Assembly: GCF_021347895.1 (NCBI RefSeq)
Contig: NC_067124.1
Span: forward strand, 15,242,521 to 15,306,520
Direction: 5' to 3'
DNA length: 64,000 nt
DNA from: Acanthochromis polyacanthus
Lineage: Eukaryota > Chordata > Actinopteri > Pomacentridae
Below the pieces are notes generated by a model. It had not been told where the DNA came from and searched no databases. It saw only the letters and a program-made list of their open reading frames with translations. A program made the position numbers and the translations under genes. Below, piece after piece: positions 17,722-33,859 of this stretch (position 1 is the first letter of the stretch; every line of letters starts with the position of its first letter).

Positions 17722-17732
17722 GTGTATATATA
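17633..17732. repeat. (TG)n-(TA)n microsatellite
   Basis: About 35 TG units are followed by about nine TA units and a short TG/TA mix. It directly abuts the left end of the foldback element at 17,733, which could have used a TA of this repeat as its target. Confidence 0.95.
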
Positions 17733-18307
17733 CCGGGCTTTGCAAAAGTTCTGTTACACTCGGTTTCATGATCTTTAGAGATGTTTACATGTCGGAGTGA
17801 AAAATTCCATTAAATAAACTGAAAGTTCTACCTTATAGGCAGGTGTCCTTAATACACATTTTTTTCTCCAGTGAAGTTGTATCAAGATGGAAGTCAGAAG
17901 AGTTGAGATATCTGCTCTCCTTTGTGCTGAACATCAGCCGGATGACCGTCAACAGAGTCGCAGAGAGGCTAAAGAATGGTGAAGATCTTTCAGGTCTTCA
18001 CCATTCTTGAAAAATCACTGAAAGATCTTCACCATTCTTCAGCCTCTCCGTGACTCTGTGGACGGTCATCCGGCTGATGTTCAGCTGCTTGGCTCTGTCA
18101 GACTTGTTGTGGCCAGCATGAAGGAGAGCAGATATCTCAACTCTTTTGACTTCCATCTTGATACAACTTCACCGGAGACAAAAATTGTATTAAGGACACC
18201 TGCCTATAAGGTAGAACTTTCAGTTTATTTAATGGAATTTTTCACTCCGACATGTAAACGTCTCTAAAGATCATGAAACCGTGTAACAGAACTTTTGCAA
18301 AGCCCGG
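17733..18307. mobile_element. Foldback mariner/Tc1-type element carrying two inverted transposase starts
   Basis: A 575-base near-complete inverted repeat flanked by TA (17,731-17,732 and 18,308-18,309). The ends read CCGGGCTTTGCAAAAGTTCT and its reverse complement, and the two arms of about 270 bases stay similar up to a short centre near 18,000. Each arm contains the start of a transposase. The right arm (minus strand, ATG near 18,154) reads MEVKRVEISALLHAGHNKSD then LNISRMTVHRVTERLKNGED, a helix-turn-helix DNA-binding start. The left arm (plus strand, ATG near 17,887) has the same start with about 42 bases deleted. No catalytic domain remains. It is a non-autonomous element built from two inverted copies of the 5' end of a mariner-like transposon. 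Confidence 0.85.
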
Positions 18308-18309
18308 TA

Positions 18310-19742
18310 CATAGAGCTCTGTCTGTATGGGTCAAAAGCAGCTTTGCCAGGCTCTGTAGCTCTTTTAGATTGGGTGCCGTGATAAAGGAAAGACCGTTGA
18401 GCAGATTTGGCCCAGGGAAAGAGTCGGATCAACCCCATTTCTGTCTCTACTCCTCTACAGCCAAACAGCAATTTGTTTAAATGCCACATTTGTCAAAATA
18501 GCTCTTACTAGTCAATTGTGAACTGGCACAAGAAGAACAATAATATAGAGTAAAAATGAATTAATTACCAGAAGCATCAAAAAAAGGCAGTTGACATGAA
18601 AGTATACTACAACATCTCATAATCTTCAAGAACTATAACAAGAACTAAATTAACTGATTTTAGGCGTAACTTCTGACAGATCACTCTTTGCTCGCATTTA
18701 GTTTAGCTTTTTCACACAATTGCAAACAAACACACACAGTCTGCACAAACAGGAAACAGCCCAAATCTGATGAAAGTGCTGCTGACCAAAGTGCAGGTTC
18801 TATAACAATGAATAAATGATGACTTCCAGATTTATCTAATCATTCACACAACATAAAATATCTCATTTGTGTGCTGAGCTTCAATTGCAGAACTCACAGT
18901 ACAAAACAAATAACAATTATCATTAATACTATTTGTCAAGACAAATAAAAATATCTTTAAAGCATTTAGCATGTGACTGCACTGTTTTTCTATTGCAACC
19001 TACATAACAATGAAAGCATTTGGACATGGAGAAGAGTTTAACGACGTGTCTTTAATATTTCGGCTTGTGTTTGTCTTAAGTACAGATCAGAGCCACTAAA
19101 GCGCACGCCTTAATTTGTGAATTTTACAGTGAATGAACAAAAAACTACAAGACTGATATTTGGAAATTTGCTGAATATCGCACCCAAAAATCTGACAGGT
19201 TGATAATCACTCAACACATTTGAGATGTAATGTGTCACAAAATACCATCACAAAAGAAGAATTATGATGCTACAGAGAAGCTTCAGCCTACATATCACAT
19301 TCATGACTGCAGCCAAAGTCATGTCATTGCTGGTATGTTTTATTCAGGAGGGGAAAAAATGGAAAAAGACCATTTGTATTAAAATCATATCTTTTAAAAA
19401 AATCCCATTGCATATTGTTCAGTGTGACTTTTTAGGTCAGTCACTGGACTTCAGCAATAGCACAAACTGAGGGGTAAAAGTAGTTTAGGTGAATGTAATT
19501 AACTAAAGCAGCTGATTGAAAAGTAATAATGCACAGTGTCTTTGCGGGAACAGTGTCATCAGGTATTTGTTCACTCAACCAGTAATAAACATGTACTTTG
19601 AATGCTAGGTAGAGTTATTTTAAAACTCTGTGGTGTCAGTTGGTTACACGTCAAGCTAGCAAGATTCAAGAAAAGATGTTGAAAAGTCCTCTCGTAAAAA
19701 AAAACAACAAAAACTTAAAACCCATTAAAATTCACCGGCCTG
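18310..19742. other. Intergenic: nothing recognised
   Basis: AT-rich sequence between the foldback element and the Ginger-like transposon. The open frames are short and show no family resemblance. The last 100 bases should be pre-insertion flank of the transposon. Confidence 0.5.
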
Positions 19743-19771
19743 TGTTGAAGATTAACTGGTGATCCGATCAA
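19743..19771 (+). repeat. Left terminal inverted repeat of the Ginger-like element
   Basis: A 29-base terminal repeat starting TGTTGAAGATTAACTGG. It matches the reverse complement of 24,658-24,686 except for one G/C difference at position 5. Confidence 0.8.
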
Positions 19772-20381
19772 AGGGTGATTCTAGCGTTTCTGAGACAGAT
19801 GTTTCGTAGGCGTGGCTTTTCAGGACCCCTTACCAACTAACCAGGAAATAAACAATGGAACAACTTCGCTTCTAAAAATGAGATTTCTGCTGTTTTATTC
19901 ATTTTGGTCCTGACAAAATATCTGGAAATAAGTCGCGTTCTCATCGTAGGAGTCATGCGCTGTCAGGCAACAAGAAAGAAAACTACGTAACTGCGGTTGG
20001 AACTAGTGCAGCTGTGATCACTGTTTACTGTCAAAACCCGTTAAAGCAGCAGACAGGAGACCAGGACACGGTGTGCGTGTCTTTTAATAAGATCAAACCC
20101 TGTGGTAGAATGCCAAAATTTTGTAGTTTAACGATGTATTGCTACCGTATTGGCAGATTTAGATCATATTGTCGCTACACTGACTTATTTAAATACACAA
20201 ACGTCAAAATATTACCAAAACAGTCCAGCAATATTTAACGTATTGAACTGGAAATGCAGCAATATAGGAGAAAAAAAAAAATCACAGGACATTCATGTTC
20301 TAATCAGCAATAGAAGTTCGTTGTGTCATACTCAAAACTGATGTCATTGACAAAAGACTGCATTTCCTTTTGATAAAACAT

Positions 20382-23300
20382 TTATTGGCAGCTATTGCAG
20401 TTGTACTCCCCATCTGTGGGTGGATGCCCCACACAGGACATATGGTACCACCTCCCACAGGCGGTACACTCAATCTGAAAGGAGATTTGAAAATAGACAT
20501 TAGAATACTAACCGGTGTTTGTCATGTTCATATCACTCACTGACACTTAAAATGTGCCATTAAAGGTAAAACTAAATGCAGCAATTTAAAAAATTAAGTA
20601 TAATGTTGCAGATCTCAGTGCTGAAGTCTGAACTGCAGAATGGAATCAGAATGCTCATACCCATTTATCCACTTTTGCGCCTGAGCTGGCCTCCCCACAA
20701 GCCCGACACATTTGAGATAGGTCCTCTGGAAAAAATAGGAAAAAAAAAAATGAAAACATGCAAGGTAGTTAAATGCAGATACATAATCACCTGCCTCCTC
20801 AAGTTTACCTGAATCTTTCAGCAGTGACATTGCTATGTCGAGCCTTAGCCTGGCCACACCCTCCTGGTCCACAGGATACTGGATGTGTTTTTTTATTTAG
20901 AATTTGTTCTGCAAGCTAAGAAATTAATGATAAATATGAATTGGAATACTTATTGTGCTAGGTGTGCACATAATCACACTCACCTTGCACACAAATACAC
21001 CATGATGTTGAGTCCTGCTGTTTTGGATGGGGCAGTGTTGCGCATGTCCACTTTGTAATTGCAGGATATACTGTGCGGACCAGTGCTCTGCAGACAACAC
21101 ATTAACCATTAATTTTAGTCCAAATAAGGCCTTTTTAAAATCAGAAGTTTTGGTTGGACTTCAGAGGGACAAGGCAATATAAAAAGAAAAACATGGAAAA
21201 AAAAAAATTGCCATCTTGCTCCCAAATACTATCCACATTATGTGTAAACATGCAATTAATCAAATGCAACCATCATTTTGTTTCATGTTCATGCCATGTT
21301 ACCTTGTTACATCTCTGCACTTCTTGATCTGCCCCTCCGTTGCCCCGAATGGATCCAGGTGCAGTGCCCTCCTCTCCTTCAGATACATGATCTTCAAAAA
21401 TGCAATGAAGTCTCATGACAAAAAAATAAATAAATCTTATTGGTGTGTCTAAATATGTTGAGATTACTTACAATAAGTGTCCAGTGTCCGTTATCACAGA
21501 CTGCTCCAGCTGCCACATCATGCTGTAGTAGCTTTAACTACAAAATATCAGATAGAAACCTTAAACATTTTATTTTGAATACACTCACCTCTTTTTTGCT
21601 TTTTTTTTTTTTTTTTTTTTAAGTTATTGTGGCTTTAGGCAGGTTAGTAGAGGCAGACAGGAAAATAGGGAAAAGACCTGCAGCAAATGGCTGTGAGCTG
21701 GAATCAAATCCAGGCTACTGCATCGGGGACTACTGCCCCTGTTTATAAGTTACCTGCTCAGCCAGCTGAGCCATCTGTCTACCAATTGAACTCACCTTTC
21801 TGAAGCCTTTTGTAGATCCTTGCCAGGCTGAGGTCATCAGATAAGAATCTAAAATCAGAGCTCCTGTCCTTTTGCCCACACTTGTCAGGTAGCCATTCAT
21901 CACCTATGAATACAGAAGTGAATTGTCATCCATTTTACCTCCACTACTCAGCAGATAATCATGACAATGGTAACATACCTCACTCTCCAGCTCCTTCCCT
22001 AGGGCCAAGTCCATGAAGTTCTCCGAAAAGATCTTATATGGCCCTATTTTGGCCCAGAGGGTGTTTTTTTGTTTTCCAGCCCATATCACTCTGATCACTG
22101 AAAAGACACAAATGCTAACCATCTGAAACATTTATGTTTTAAGGTACAATTTGTTAGTGTACTTACAGTTTTCTGCATCTTCGTGCTGATCTAGGGTCTG
22201 GATCCTTGTTGCCTTCAATGTAGACTCCACTGATTAGGGTCCAGCCAGAGAAGCTGCCAAGATTTTCTGCAACTTTGCAGGTATCCTCTCCTCTGGCTGG
22301 AAATAGTGGGTAAGGTGATCAATATTCATCTTCCGCTTTATTTTCCCTCCATCTGATAAAAGGTCGGCACATTTTCCGATGAGGTTTATGATTTTAAAAG
22401 GTCCAAGCACGTCAGGGTCCAATTTCCCCCCTTTCCTCTGCTCCTGCCTAATATTTTTAGTAATACTAGATCCCCCACTTTGAAGTAATCTTCAGTACCA
22501 TGTTTGGCCCTCCTTTTACGTACTGCATCTTGGCTTTTTTTTTTATGTTTGCTTTGACCTCCTTATAGGTCGTTGCCTGCCTTTTCAAGCCATCACACAC
22601 TTCTTCATGTTGAACTAAGGAAGATACATGTTCTTCTGTCACCTGCCAAACAAAGCAGAATAATTAGTAATGGAATGCCAGGAGCGTCATCTCAACATTT
22701 TCACAAAATGTTTATGTTGAGAATATTAAGATTTCTTACTTTGTATTCCTTAGGTACTTCTGATGGATACCTGGCTTCCCTCCCAAACATCAAGAAGTAC
22801 AGGCTGTATTTTGTGGTCAGTTGTTTTTTTGTGTGAAGACCAAACATGGTAGCTTGAAGAAACTTGTCCCAAGTTGTGGGGTGTTCCGCTACAAGTTTAT
22901 TCAGTGACCTTCAAATGGAAAATTGAACAACAGAAGAAAGTACGATAAAATTTGGGTTAAGTATGATAAAGCAGAATATTTGCAAAATCTAATTTCCACA
23001 AAAGTTGCATGATCAAATAGTTAAACAACTTACCTTTGGATTGTGCCATTTAGCTTTTCCACGAGACCATTTGTCTGGGGATGATATGGCGAGCAGAGGC
23101 TTCTTTCAATGCCCAGCTTTTCACATATGCCGTAGTTCAGCTTCAAAAGGGTTGTAGGACAAACCAAAAAATAAGTCAGCAGTCACTTTTATATTTTTGG
23201 CAGCAATTATGTATCAGTGCTGTACTTTGTTGCGAAACTCTGAGCCCTGATCTGTTAGCAGTCTTTTAGGTGCACCAAATTTGTAAAACCAATCAAGGAT

Positions 23301-24254
23301 GCAATTAGTGACCTCATCTGCTGTTTTACTTTTTAGTGGGTAGGCCTCTGCCCATTTGGTGAAGTAATCAACCATGACACATATGTACTGATTGCCACTG
23401 TCTGAGTGAGTTTACCCACAAGATCCATTCCAACGAGCTCTAGAGGCTCGGTTACCTATTTGAGAAAAGAAAGGTGTATTAAATAATTGTTGTTATGTTG
23501 AGAACCAACAGAAAATTCAATCTTTACCTCTATCGGACTGTATTCTTTTTTTCTTTGATAGAGGCCCGCTTGGACCGGCATGGTGGACATTGAGCAATCT
23601 AAGTAGACAAAGCCCAATATCATTTCCAAATTACAAACTGTACAAATAAATTGTAATGTTGAAAATTAAAAGTACAACTTTGAGAATCACCAAGACTGAG
23701 AAGTAAAATAAGTCATTACACCTGCAGAGCATTAGTTAGTATTCAAACCTTAGATTGGCATTCCATTTAGATACAAATATACACTAACAGAACTTACATG
23801 TGCATTTTAAAAGTCATTATGAAGATATCAACTTACCCACTTCTTAATGTCACTCTCCATGCCAGGCCAGTAATAGCGGCTGATTATAGCGCTGTGTGTT
23901 TTCTCCCAGCCACAATGACCCCCAAAATGGCTTTCATGAAATTCATGAAAGATATCATCTGCCTCTTTGGCAGAGCAAACAACTTTTGCCAGGTGCTCAG
24001 GCTGAGTTTTCTTCCGCCTACATATGTAGTACAGTTCACCATCTAGTGTGTGAATGTGAAGCACATTTAACATGAAATTACAGAGTTTAGAAAGTGTAGT
24101 TGACTAACTACAAATCCCTATTATACACCTTACCCTTTACCATGAAGGTTTCAGCTCTTCTTTTGATCACATATTTTTGTTTTGGAGTGATGCCTTCAGG
24201 GTAACGGTTACTAATTTTCAGGTCAAGGACCTCTTGAGCCATTTTGGGGTCCAT
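20382..24254 (-). pseudogene. Ginger-like transposase: DD35E integrase + C48 protease + PHD, frameshifted
   Basis: Fifteen exons with GT-AG introns, in coding order: 24134-24254, 23837-24042, 23528-23598, 23226-23455, 23034-23140, 22740-22908, 22167-22642, 21979-22097, 21796-21903, 21472-21537, 21303-21391, 20984-21087, 20809-20878, 20661-20725, 20382-20474. Start is MDPKMAQEVLDLK. Exons 2-3 give an HHCC zinc finger (HESHFGGHCG, CPPC). Exons 4-5 give the integrase core: GMDLVGK, LLTDQGSEF and GLVEKLN, with exactly 35 residues between the second Asp and Glu. Exon 7 has the GPF motif (VLGPFKIINLIG). Exons 8-13 are a Ulp1/SENP-like domain: catalytic His in GHWTLI, Asp in HLDPFG. Exons 14-15 are a PHD finger (CRAC, CTACGRWYHMSC, CNSC). 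Exons 3 and 4 are each one base short, exon 7 two, and exon 12 loses two bases at the expected catalytic Cys. Exon 7 also has an in-frame TAA after LAGP. An AATAAA overlaps the stop codon. Confidence 0.85.
21600..21783 (-). repeat. tRNA-derived SINE with poly(A), inside an intron of the Ginger-like gene
   Basis: On the minus strand an A-box-like 'tggctcagctggctgagca' is followed by a B-box-like 'ggatttgattcc', a short body and an A21 tail (plus-strand T-run 21,600-21,620). Flanks are similar: TTGAATACACTCACCT on the left and TTGAACTCACCT on the right, an imperfect target duplication. It lies between the protease exons at 21,472-21,537 and 21,796-21,903, so it inserted after or with the transposon. 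Confidence 0.7.
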
Positions 24255-24657
24255 TTTTTAAAGACAGATTTCCCTGTGTTGCCCTTTCTTACCACTGGCT
24301 ACACTAACACCTAACTAACCTAAACTAACCTAAATCCTACGCTTACCTATCTGCTAACTTATCTAACTTCAGACTTAACTATGAAATCTGGTGTAGATCG
24401 TCACACTCTGCCGCAGCGAAGCGATATTTCCATTCCGTTTGGTGGAAGTCCTCATAAAACCGCGTATTTTATTGGTAGACTGAACAGCCGTGAGTAAAAA
24501 AAGAACAATAACGATTTTTGGAGCCAATGTTAAAGCTGACAAAAAGAGCATTTCGGAACAGTTTATTGACACTGTGTGTTTTCAACAGGCATCAACACAG
24601 TCACCTATGCTATGTATTGCCGTTGTAACGTCTGTCTCGCTCGCTGAAAATCACCAG

Positions 24658-24686
24658 TTGATCGGATCACCAGTTAATCTTGAACA
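24658..24686 (-). repeat. Right terminal inverted repeat of the Ginger-like element
   Basis: Reverse complement of the left terminal repeat with one mismatch over 29 bases; the outermost bases read ACA on the plus strand. Confidence 0.8.
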
Positions 24687-25397
24687 CCCACGGGCGGGCC
24701 GTTTTGATATCTGCATAAGCATTTTTCGAAATAGAACGGCACTGCCAACACAATGATTCAAACACTATACACCGATAGAAAGCTTAGATTCCCATGAATC
24801 CGCAGGTATAAACCACTTTCAGATGTGATTACCACAGCGGGTAATATAACCACATTTCTCCAACAAACAACAAAAATTTAAAGGGACACATAAAGGGCGT
24901 AACTCACCTTTGGACGCTCTTTTACTGGTCAACGATGAAAATAAGCCACAAAAACCGGCCAGAATCCAAGCTTCGGCATCCAGACAATACTAGCAAGTAT
25001 AATATTTTGTCCAAAACATGTCTTGAATTAAGTAACTAATCCACAAATAGCTCGGCTCCGTGCGCGCACACGCAGCGCTGCGCATTTCATAATCACTGCA
25101 TTTATGCCCATATTTCTATTCACGGTGCAGAAATCCATGTGGTCTAGGACTCAAAATGGCGACTGAAGTCTTTCCTTTATGTTTACACTGCGTTCAACCA
25201 ATCAAGTGACTCTGGCCTGCCTACGAGCCCTAAACGGCCAACCGTGGCCGAGACTGACTGATCTGGATCTACCTCATCAGTCAGCAAATTCTGAGCAAAT
25301 CACGTCGGAGGAAACGTTTGACTGACAGGGCTGATAGCCAATGCGCCTGATGAATACCAGGAAATAAATACAGCCTCTGCCAGCGGGGTTGTGTGAC
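24687..25397. other. Short CpG-rich stretch, no gene recognised
   Basis: CpG-containing sequence (for example around 25,050-25,085 and 25,200-25,310) sits upstream of the Ginger-like gene. A splice-donor-like 'AAAG/GTGAGTTACG' on the minus strand near 24,910 could mark an untranslated first exon driven from here. No protein is evident. It could be the promoter captured by the transposon or plain host sequence. Confidence 0.35.
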
Positions 25398-25405
25398 ATT
25401 TCACA

Positions 25406-26349
25406 CAGGGCCGTAGCCAGGATTTTGGAATAGGTGAGGTCCATGATGTGCGCGCATCAAGTTGTTCTAGGTTTTAAAAAAAATATTTATTTTTATATAT
25501 ATTTTTTTAGGCTACATGTCACACAAGATGTTGTTTAAATATCTTTTAATGATGTGAAATCAGCATTTTCCAAACAAAAATGTATATTTTTTCAAAAAAA
25601 CAAATCAACTTTTTACATCAAAGGCTAGCTGAATCCTCCTGTGACCAGAGGCATCCCACCGTCGAAGGATATTCTCCCGGTTCACCTCCACTTTCTGATG
25701 CACATGCATCATCGCCAGGCCTGTCAGTCTGTCATTGGACATGGTAGATCTAAGCCATGTCTTAAGTCTTCGCATGGCTGAGAATGACCTCTCACAGACA
25801 GAAGTCGTCACTGGCAAGGTTAGAAATATCTTCAACATACATTGTATGTTGTCTGATGAGCCAGGCGCTCATCAAAAAAAAAAAAAAAAAAAAAAAAGCG
25901 CCGGACGCGCTCTCCGCTGTGGATAAAAGTAATTAAATTCTTTGATCAGATGATCTGACAGGCCGAACTAGTGCCGAATTATCTAAAATAATATATTGTG
26001 GTCACCTTGGTGTAGATGGGCGGGGATGTGGTCTACAAAGTGCTAACAATAAAAACACTAGTTTTTGAACGGGGTTTGGCCCGCTGCCAAGCGCGTCACA
26101 TGGCGCATTTGCGGGTACGTGCATCAGCTGATCAAACAGCTTTTCACCGCAACACGCACACAGGCACAAACAGAACACAAAGCCCATGGATGTTTACCAC
26201 AATTTACAATTTACAAGCACGTTTCACAGAGAGGTTTCAAGTTTTTATGAGTTTGTTTTATTCAGTTGGGCATATTTGGCGAAAAAAAAAACTCGGAAAA
26301 AATAGGTGAGGTCTGGACCTCGCTGACCTCATACCTGGCTACGGCCATG
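25406..26349 (-). mobile_element. Internally deleted hAT transposon with 8-bp target duplication
   Basis: A 944-base element flanked by a perfect ATTTCACA duplication at 25,398-25,405 and 26,350-26,357. The terminal repeats are CAGGGCCGTAGCCAGG on the left and the inverse of CATGGCCGTAGCCAGG on the right, one mismatch in 16. Inside are the C-terminal end of a hAT transposase (next entry) and an A24 run at 25,874-25,897. The central transposase is missing, so it could move only with help from a full-length relative. Confidence 0.92.
25605..25838 (-). pseudogene. hAT transposase C-terminal dimerisation domain
   Basis: The 77-residue frame holds the signature of the hAT C-terminal dimerisation region: LTLPVTTSVCERSFSAMRRL, KTWLRSTM, then NDRLTGLAMMHVH. 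This is the most conserved segment of hAT transposases and of ZMYM/52-kDa-repressor-like relatives. The RNase H-like catalytic core that should precede it is absent. Confidence 0.9.
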
Positions 26350-33098: not shown

Positions 33099-33859
33099 AG
33101 GGGAACTTCGTTTTTTTTCAACCTGGGGTCTGTTTTCATATGTCATTTCATACATGTGAGTGATGGAGAAATGAATTTTTGACATAGCTCCAGTATTTAG
33201 CCAGGCAGGCAGCTTAGCAGCTTAGCTAGCAGCTCAGCTCGTGAAAAGTATGGGGCAAATACCCCCCCACCCCCCGCGCCTCAAAGTCCGCCCTAACGTG
33301 CTTTTTTCCCCACACTGACCGGCTCGGATAGTCTCAACGAGTGTCCCACAACATACTAGAGATGAAAAGTGAACGACAACCTCCACATTACCTGGCGTTC
33401 GCTCTTTGTTGTGGTCTGAATCCAAAGCTCAGGATGCTAGAAAGCAAATCTCGTTCCGAAATCCCGCGAGAAACACCGGTTTTGCCGCGAGCTCTCGTGC
33501 GATTTCGGAACGAGATTTGCTTTCTAGCATCCTGAGATTTGGATTCAGACCACAACAAAGAGCGAACGCCAGGTAATGTGGAGGTTTTCGTTCACTTCTC
33601 ATCTCTAGTATGTTGTGGGACACTCGTTGAGACTATCTGAGCCGGTCAGTGTGGGGAAAAAAGCACGTTGGGGCGGACTTTGACACGTGGGGGTAATTGC
33701 CCCATACGTTTTGCTAGCTGAGCTGCTAGCTGAACAGCTAAGCTGCCTGCCTGACTAAATACTGGAGCTATGTCGAAAATGTATTTCTCCATCACTCACA
33801 TGTATGAAATGACAAATGAAAACAGACCCCAGGTAGAAAAAAAAAAACGAAGTTCCCCT
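33099..33859. mobile_element. 761-bp near-palindromic MITE between TTAA sites
   Basis: The whole element folds back on itself. Its ends read AGGGGAACTTCG and CGAAGTTCCCCT, and the two arms of about 370 bases match nearly throughout, meeting near 33,480-33,495. TTAA flanks it at 33,095-33,098 and 33,860-33,863, the target of piggyBac-type transposases. Two 64-residue frames on opposite strands (33,341-33,535 and 33,429-33,623) are mirror products of the arms, not genes. The small arm differences show some age. Confidence 0.85.

Follow-up and report, generated by a model that had tools for sequence, protein, structure and literature searches.

What kind of locus joins a Gypsy-type integrase, a C48 protease and a PHD finger in one spliced gene, and could that gene still make its protein? 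The question is raised by a stretch of 64,000 nucleotides from Acanthochromis polyacanthus (NCBI RefSeq assembly GCF_021347895.1, contig NC_067124.1, positions 15,242,521 to 15,306,520), here called the window and numbered from its first letter. An original prediction, made from the sequence alone, had described there a Ginger-type DNA transposon with the three domains spread over 15 exons, and had called the architecture unusual. Our analyses indicate that the locus is very probably a fish Ginger1 DNA transposon that has degenerated; this copy is dead and incapable of yielding the full protein.

Table 1. Features of the element and its broken gene in the window
Feature	Positions	Strand	Basis or remark
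Whole element, Ginger1-type DNA transposon copy	19743..24686	-	4944 bp; inverted repeats at the ends; host repeat uninterrupted elsewhere; other copies of the family
Target site duplication, low side, decayed	19739..19742	.	single 4-mer in three uninterrupted host-repeat copies
Target site duplication, high side, decayed	24687..24690	.	single 4-mer in three uninterrupted host-repeat copies
Terminal inverted repeat, low end (3' of gene)	19743..19780	+	92% repeat match; genome matches
Terminal inverted repeat, high end (5' of gene)	24649..24686	-	pairs with low end; family alignments
Broken transposase gene	20382..24254	-	15 exons with 14 GT-AG introns; frame broken six times, one stop
Exon 1, start of N-terminal (YPYY-type) region	24134..24254	-	aligned with five relatives
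Exon 2, H2C2 finger, two His	23837..24042	-	Pfam PF17921
Exon 3, H2C2 finger CxxC; frame break	23528..23598	-	Pfam match; relatives; exon model
Exon 4, integrase core, catalytic D 1 and 2; frame break	23226..23455	-	PF00665; relatives
Exon 5, catalytic E, 35 residues past second D	23034..23140	-	relatives alignment; exon model
Exon 6, C-terminal part of integrase	22740..22908	-	relatives alignment; exon model
Exon 7, LGPF module of GPY/F type with a short linker; frame broken twice, one in-frame stop	22167..22642	-	exon model
Exons 8-12, C48/Ulp1 protease	20984..22097 (22097-21979, 21903-21796, 21537-21472, 21391-21303, 21087-20984)	-	PF02902; exon 12 lacks the codon of the catalytic Cys
Exon 13, protease domain C-terminal end; frame break	20809..20915	-	exon model
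Exons 14-15, PHD finger and stop codon	20382..20725 (20725-20661, 20474-20382)	-	PF00628

A fifteen-exon gene and its decay

Rebuilt from the sequence, the gene has 14 introns of 68–258 nt, all with GT–AG borders, and the frame is carried across the joins. Strand, outer ends, exons and introns all agree with the prediction; what failed is the intact, phase-consistent frame, which is broken six times inside exons. Most of the joins are backed by relatives and by sister copies in the genome: 9 of the 14 are ungapped in at least eight of ten relatives (or in five of five), joins 7/8 and 14/15 in 6/10 and 5/8, and joins 6/7, 9/10 and 11/12 in only 2/10, 1/10 and 0/10, the last owing to an X typed into the query. 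The splice dinucleotides are mostly kept in the other genome copies, with some lost or unaligned.

With exon pieces joined by hand and an X placed at each frame break as the query, the four Pfam profiles named in the prediction all match above cut-off, C48 and PHD included: Integrase_H2C2 (PF17921) at 69.3 bits, rve (PF00665) at 57.5, PHD (PF00628) at 30.7 against a cut-off of 24 and, weakly, Peptidase_C48 (PF02902) at 21.9 against 20.7. The predicted motifs are likewise present, from the HHCC pattern of the H2C2 finger and the D, D and E, with exactly 35 residues between the last two, to the LGPF motif, the protease His (GHW) and Asp (LDPFG) and the C4HC3 pattern of the PHD finger. LGP followed by F or Y recurs in ten of ten aligned relatives. 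Exons 1–2 read YP...YY, which may correspond to the YPYY motif that precedes the finger in Ginger1; all five relatives that cover the region read YP...YY or YP...FY. Of the 28 open reading frames of at least 60 amino acids that overlap the element, the eight exon-bearing ones were scanned as the joined pieces and the other 20 alone; these 20 gave no match, and neither they nor the exon pieces contain an OTU domain, a reverse transcriptase or a gag match in Pfam. A search of Rfam at gathering scores gave no match.

The spliced sequence is 2131 nt long, not a multiple of three, and is read in frames 0-2-1-0-2-0-1, with an in-frame stop in addition to the six frame changes. Several of the shifts were seen again by tblastn with three relatives, and the one in exon 12 in comparison with other genome copies; frame breaks as tiny introns were considered and rejected, the breaks lying inside exons and several being frame changes against relatives. 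The exon 12 change deletes the codon of the catalytic Cys, leaving the His-Asp-Cys triad of the protease incomplete, with only His and Asp in place. The Cys is found in ten of ten aligned relatives and in five of the six other genome copies that cover the site, the sixth having Arg. The original prediction overlooked this decay; the intact gene that it implied is contradicted by six frame changes, a stop and a lost catalytic codon.

Could these defects be errors of sequencing or assembly in a copy that is really intact? Three of the six breaks do fall at runs of at least seven A, but the other three do not, an in-frame stop is present as well, and six other copies in the genome each carry stops or differences in exon length that are not multiples of three. 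The exon 4 break also recurs in another copy elsewhere in the genome (C5), and we regard an explanation by errors as very unlikely. At the exon 3 break, C5 is ungapped against the window and probably has this break, too; copies C2 and C18 differ from the window at both sites and C7 at that in exon 4. Judging from these alignments, the lineage of the window copy was probably already broken at one site or more at the time of its last move, and because C5 has the same exon 4 break, an intact relative probably mobilised this lineage in trans; gene conversion could explain the shared break instead.

Element ends, target site and sister copies

The gene is bounded by a 39-nt inverted repeat at 92% identity (19742-19780 with 24649-24687), and the terminal inverted repeats of about 38 bp at each end agree with the Ginger1 range of about 40–270 bp at its short end. 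Searched against the genome, the low-end repeat gave 40 scored matches, the window counted, among 159 candidates, and the high end of the window copy matches the low ends of the family in 13 of 19 fetched loci over 62–64 nt at 84–87%. Of the 19 regions fetched, 18 yielded ends, 31 in total; CCGG adjoins 23 of the 31, with CCGT at one more and ACGG at another, and among 20 more ends that were fetched, CCGG adjoins 10 of the 14 that could be read. Among the 13 copies with both ends, eight carry identical 4-mers at their two ends (CCGG in seven, CCCT in one), although two of the 13, L030 and L031, have common flanks and are apparently a single copy that was duplicated. The family termini are mostly TGTTC, and the low terminus of the window copy is TGTTG. 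Ginger1 termini have been published as TGTNR (PMC2836005); most family ends agree with its TGT and depart at the fifth base, and we treated this consensus as a soft rule.

The window copy's own flanking 4-mers, CCTG and CCCA, are unequal and form no exact CCGG pair, each being one CpG transition away from CCCG. When the two flanks were joined and compared with the genome, 40 scored matches were obtained among 636 candidates; the window accounts for two of them, and all the remaining 38 cross the junction, reaching 12–43 bases to the left of it. Three of these uninterrupted loci were read, and at the junction each has one 4-mer (CCCA twice, CCCG once), compared with two in the window. Because the uninterrupted copies show a single 4-mer, the insertion near the edge of this dispersed repeat can be given a 4-bp duplication and the bounds 19743-24686, the empty sites here being other copies of the repeat, as opposed to the orthologous position in a different fish. 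With its inverted repeats, CCGG-type target, uninterrupted host-repeat copies and sister copies, the predicted Ginger-type transposon carrying C48 and PHD domains is well founded. The inverted repeats, the duplication and the sister copies had escaped the original prediction.

The host repeat, seen in the window at 24687 and onward, is abundant and dispersed and contains a GC-rich palindromic stretch. Of the 12 other family flanks compared, five (L019, L023, L027, L029 and L069) also lie in it, at 87–89% over 182–191 nt and near the same point as in the window copy. The shared position may mark a site preferred for insertion, or some copies may have spread along with the repeat. In L019, L023 and L029, the first bases of the other flank are also common to all three.

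Coding exons are repeated elsewhere in the genome. The integrase-core exon has ten matches, half of them at 91% or above and the other half at 69–80%, and exon 13 has seven, the window counted in both. Pooled over six copies, differences from the window amount to 311 of 2845 at third codon positions, 160 of 2866 at first and 146 of 2868 at second, the six comparisons all sharing the window copy and not being independent; third positions are about twice as variable, as expected if the copies descend from coding ancestors. Seven further members (L019, L020, L022, L023, L026, L027 and L028) are about 3 kb long and retain both ends and the stretch of exons 1–2 with most of the gene missing; they carry near the 5' end about 1.2 kb absent in the window copy. 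From their layout, these are likely non-autonomous derivatives. Another locus, L033 (copy C18), looks mosaic, with the protease His region just 41% identical to the window family versus 83–90% for exons 1–6.

Ginger1 membership and rival origins

Ginger1 was defined by Bao, Kapitonov and Jurka in 2010 by an integrase-like transposase, terminal inverted repeats, a CCGG/CCGT target and a C-terminal OTU or Ulp1 domain (PMC2836005). The element has terminal inverted repeats, a 4-bp CCGG/CCGT/ACGG duplication at the family level, H2C2 and DDE domains, a GPY/F module, Ulp1 without OTU, and no reverse transcriptase or gag; by these features and domains, we file it as a member. The same text lists Ginger1-9_HM of Hydra magnipapillata with integrase, Ulp1 and PHD, and "unusual" was thus an overstatement: the combination has been known since 2010. 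That element resembles ours in the order of its domains, with Ulp1 and PHD after an integrase-like transposase, in its inverted repeats and introns and in the CCGG/CCGT-type target of its group; as described, the two are set apart by host (hydra versus fish), number of introns (2 versus 14; 0–4 in the 2010 Ginger table), inverted repeats (120 bp versus about 38) and length (3,758 versus 4,944 bp) (PMC2836005). Teleost Ginger elements are counted in PMC4746887, and in the literature searched, which left Repbase and most subscription papers outside, we found no fish Ginger1 element with a PHD finger. What is new here is a fish member with 14 introns.

Proteins of other fish have the same make-up. 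A search of 5.8 billion sequences gave 477 matches at E <= 0.001 among 7559 candidates, and among the 120 listed, ten have PF00628 and five combine rve, C48 and PHD, all from fish: P0010 (Triplophysa dalaica), P0011 (Metynnis hypsauchen), P0022 (Oreochromis niloticus) and P0039 (Danio rerio), at 45–48% identity, and P0058 (Hoplias malabaricus) at 39%. All five are predicted proteins, named "uncharacterized", "hypothetical" or sentrin-specific protease; P0010, P0022 and P0039 have a long linker rich in Pro, Ser and Thr, whereas that of the window copy is short. In a protein from a scallop (P0070), an integrase is combined with C48, and the C-terminal finger gives only a weak C1 match. The relative P0003 is one uninterrupted reading frame on a contig of 2452 bases, as expected of a spliced or intronless copy; its finger is C4HC3 by eye, without a Pfam PHD match at 0.01.

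Could the locus be a piece of a Gypsy LTR retrotransposon in which a protease and a PHD finger had been captured by the integrase part? The integrase does match Gypsy-type integrases, and proteins bearing reverse transcriptase appear among the lower-ranked of the listed matches; the best-ranked ones, however, come mostly from fish and carry C48 and/or PHD, the element's ends are inverted repeats and not LTRs, and the scans described above found no reverse transcriptase or gag. We see next to no chance of this origin. A domesticated gene, derived from Ginger1 and kept for a host function, would recall Gin-1 and Gin-2, which are described as host genes descended from Ginger1 and which resemble the window gene in having a Ginger1-derived integrase with introns; their 6–8 introns agree with its many exons (PMC2836005). 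The window gene, however, lies between inverted repeats in a host repeat that is uninterrupted elsewhere, has other copies in the genome and is disabled by its frame breaks and stop; domestication is just as improbable as the Gypsy origin. The degenerate transposon copy that we prefer adds a fish family, with ends, target, intron map and copies, to a group whose Ulp1 and PHD form had been shown in hydra, and extends the same make-up to proteins of five other fish. A single dead copy changes no picture, but the family offers material for testing whether a transposon's PHD finger steers its insertion.

Protease, PHD finger and the surroundings of insertions

In the intact ancestor of this Ginger1 copy, one spliced transposase would have combined the H2C2 finger, DD35E core, LGPF module, Ulp1/SENP-like protease and PHD finger. 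Following what is known of retroviral integrases and Ginger1, the integrase would bind the inverted repeats and join the element to a CCGG-type target. With less assurance, the protease may take SUMO or a SUMO-like tag off host proteins or the element's own, and the PHD finger may bind H3K4-methylated tails near the target. A structure model, made for the relative P0003 and not for the window copy, has a mean pLDDT of 71.7 and a pTM of 0.44, high in the protease and low in the linker and parts of the integrase; it matches a foamy-virus integrase and, in its protease part, human SENP2 and SENP1 and yeast Ulp1 (TM by target 0.75-0.82), and a PDB search with the P0003 sequence likewise gave foamy-virus integrase and SENP1/2.

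Among the 88 PDB matches of the PHD profile, of which 60 were shown, the best are Alfin-like 3 and 1, another PHD finger family protein, KDM5B, BPTF and KDM5A; several of these we take to be H3K4me3 readers. DPF3, KAT6A and UHRF1, also among the matches, are presumably not. One Trp position is conserved in eight of nine aligned rows and another in all nine, and the window copy has both; we assume that they form the aromatic cage of the finger.

The original prediction had suggested that the PHD finger could steer insertion to histone marks and that the protease could remove SUMO-based silencing or process the protein; both the steering and the deSUMOylation are putative roles. In its fuller form, the PHD finger of intact relatives would read H3K4 methylation or CpG-rich surroundings, the element would settle in unmethylated CpG stretches with CCGG, and the SENP-like domain would strip SUMO silencing; this we consider unlikely. 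Hints of it lie in the presumed H3K4me3 readers among the PHD matches and in the CpG of the insertion flanks, whereas the presumed non-readers among the matches speak against it. Removal of SUMO-based silencing may be set as an alternative beside the suggestion of Bao et al. that repair in the wake of transposition may be aided by the Ulp1 and OTU domains (PMC2836005).

The insertion flanks provide a hint of a CpG preference on which the controls disagree. After reduction from 51 flanks to 44, with one kept per repeat-sharing group, their mean CpG ratio is 0.70, compared with 0.52 at 186 other CCGG-site flanks (p = 0.001) and 0.51 at the 61 of these that lie outside the window (p = 0.002), with the reservation that flanks belonging to the same copy do not count as independent and that 20 flanks were taken at fixed offsets, six of them beside unreadable ends. 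At 29 control flanks within 1.5 kb of insertions, however, the ratio is 0.91, which argues against a sharp preference, and the insertion flanks are not GC-rich, which speaks against steering by PHD and CpG; nesting in young repeats could be the source of the high flank CpG.

The window holds other repeats besides the Ginger1 copy and its host repeat. A remnant of the C-terminal dimerisation region of a hAT transposase lies at 25605-25868 on the minus strand (PF05699, 38.3 bits), and a long imperfect palindrome with a helix-turn-helix reading frame at 17727-18313 is probably a Tc1/mariner-like remnant, the name being a guess. Farther along, at 33111-33844, nested inverted repeats with arms of 201 and 156 nt, matching at 95% and 91%, form a hairpin-like repeat.
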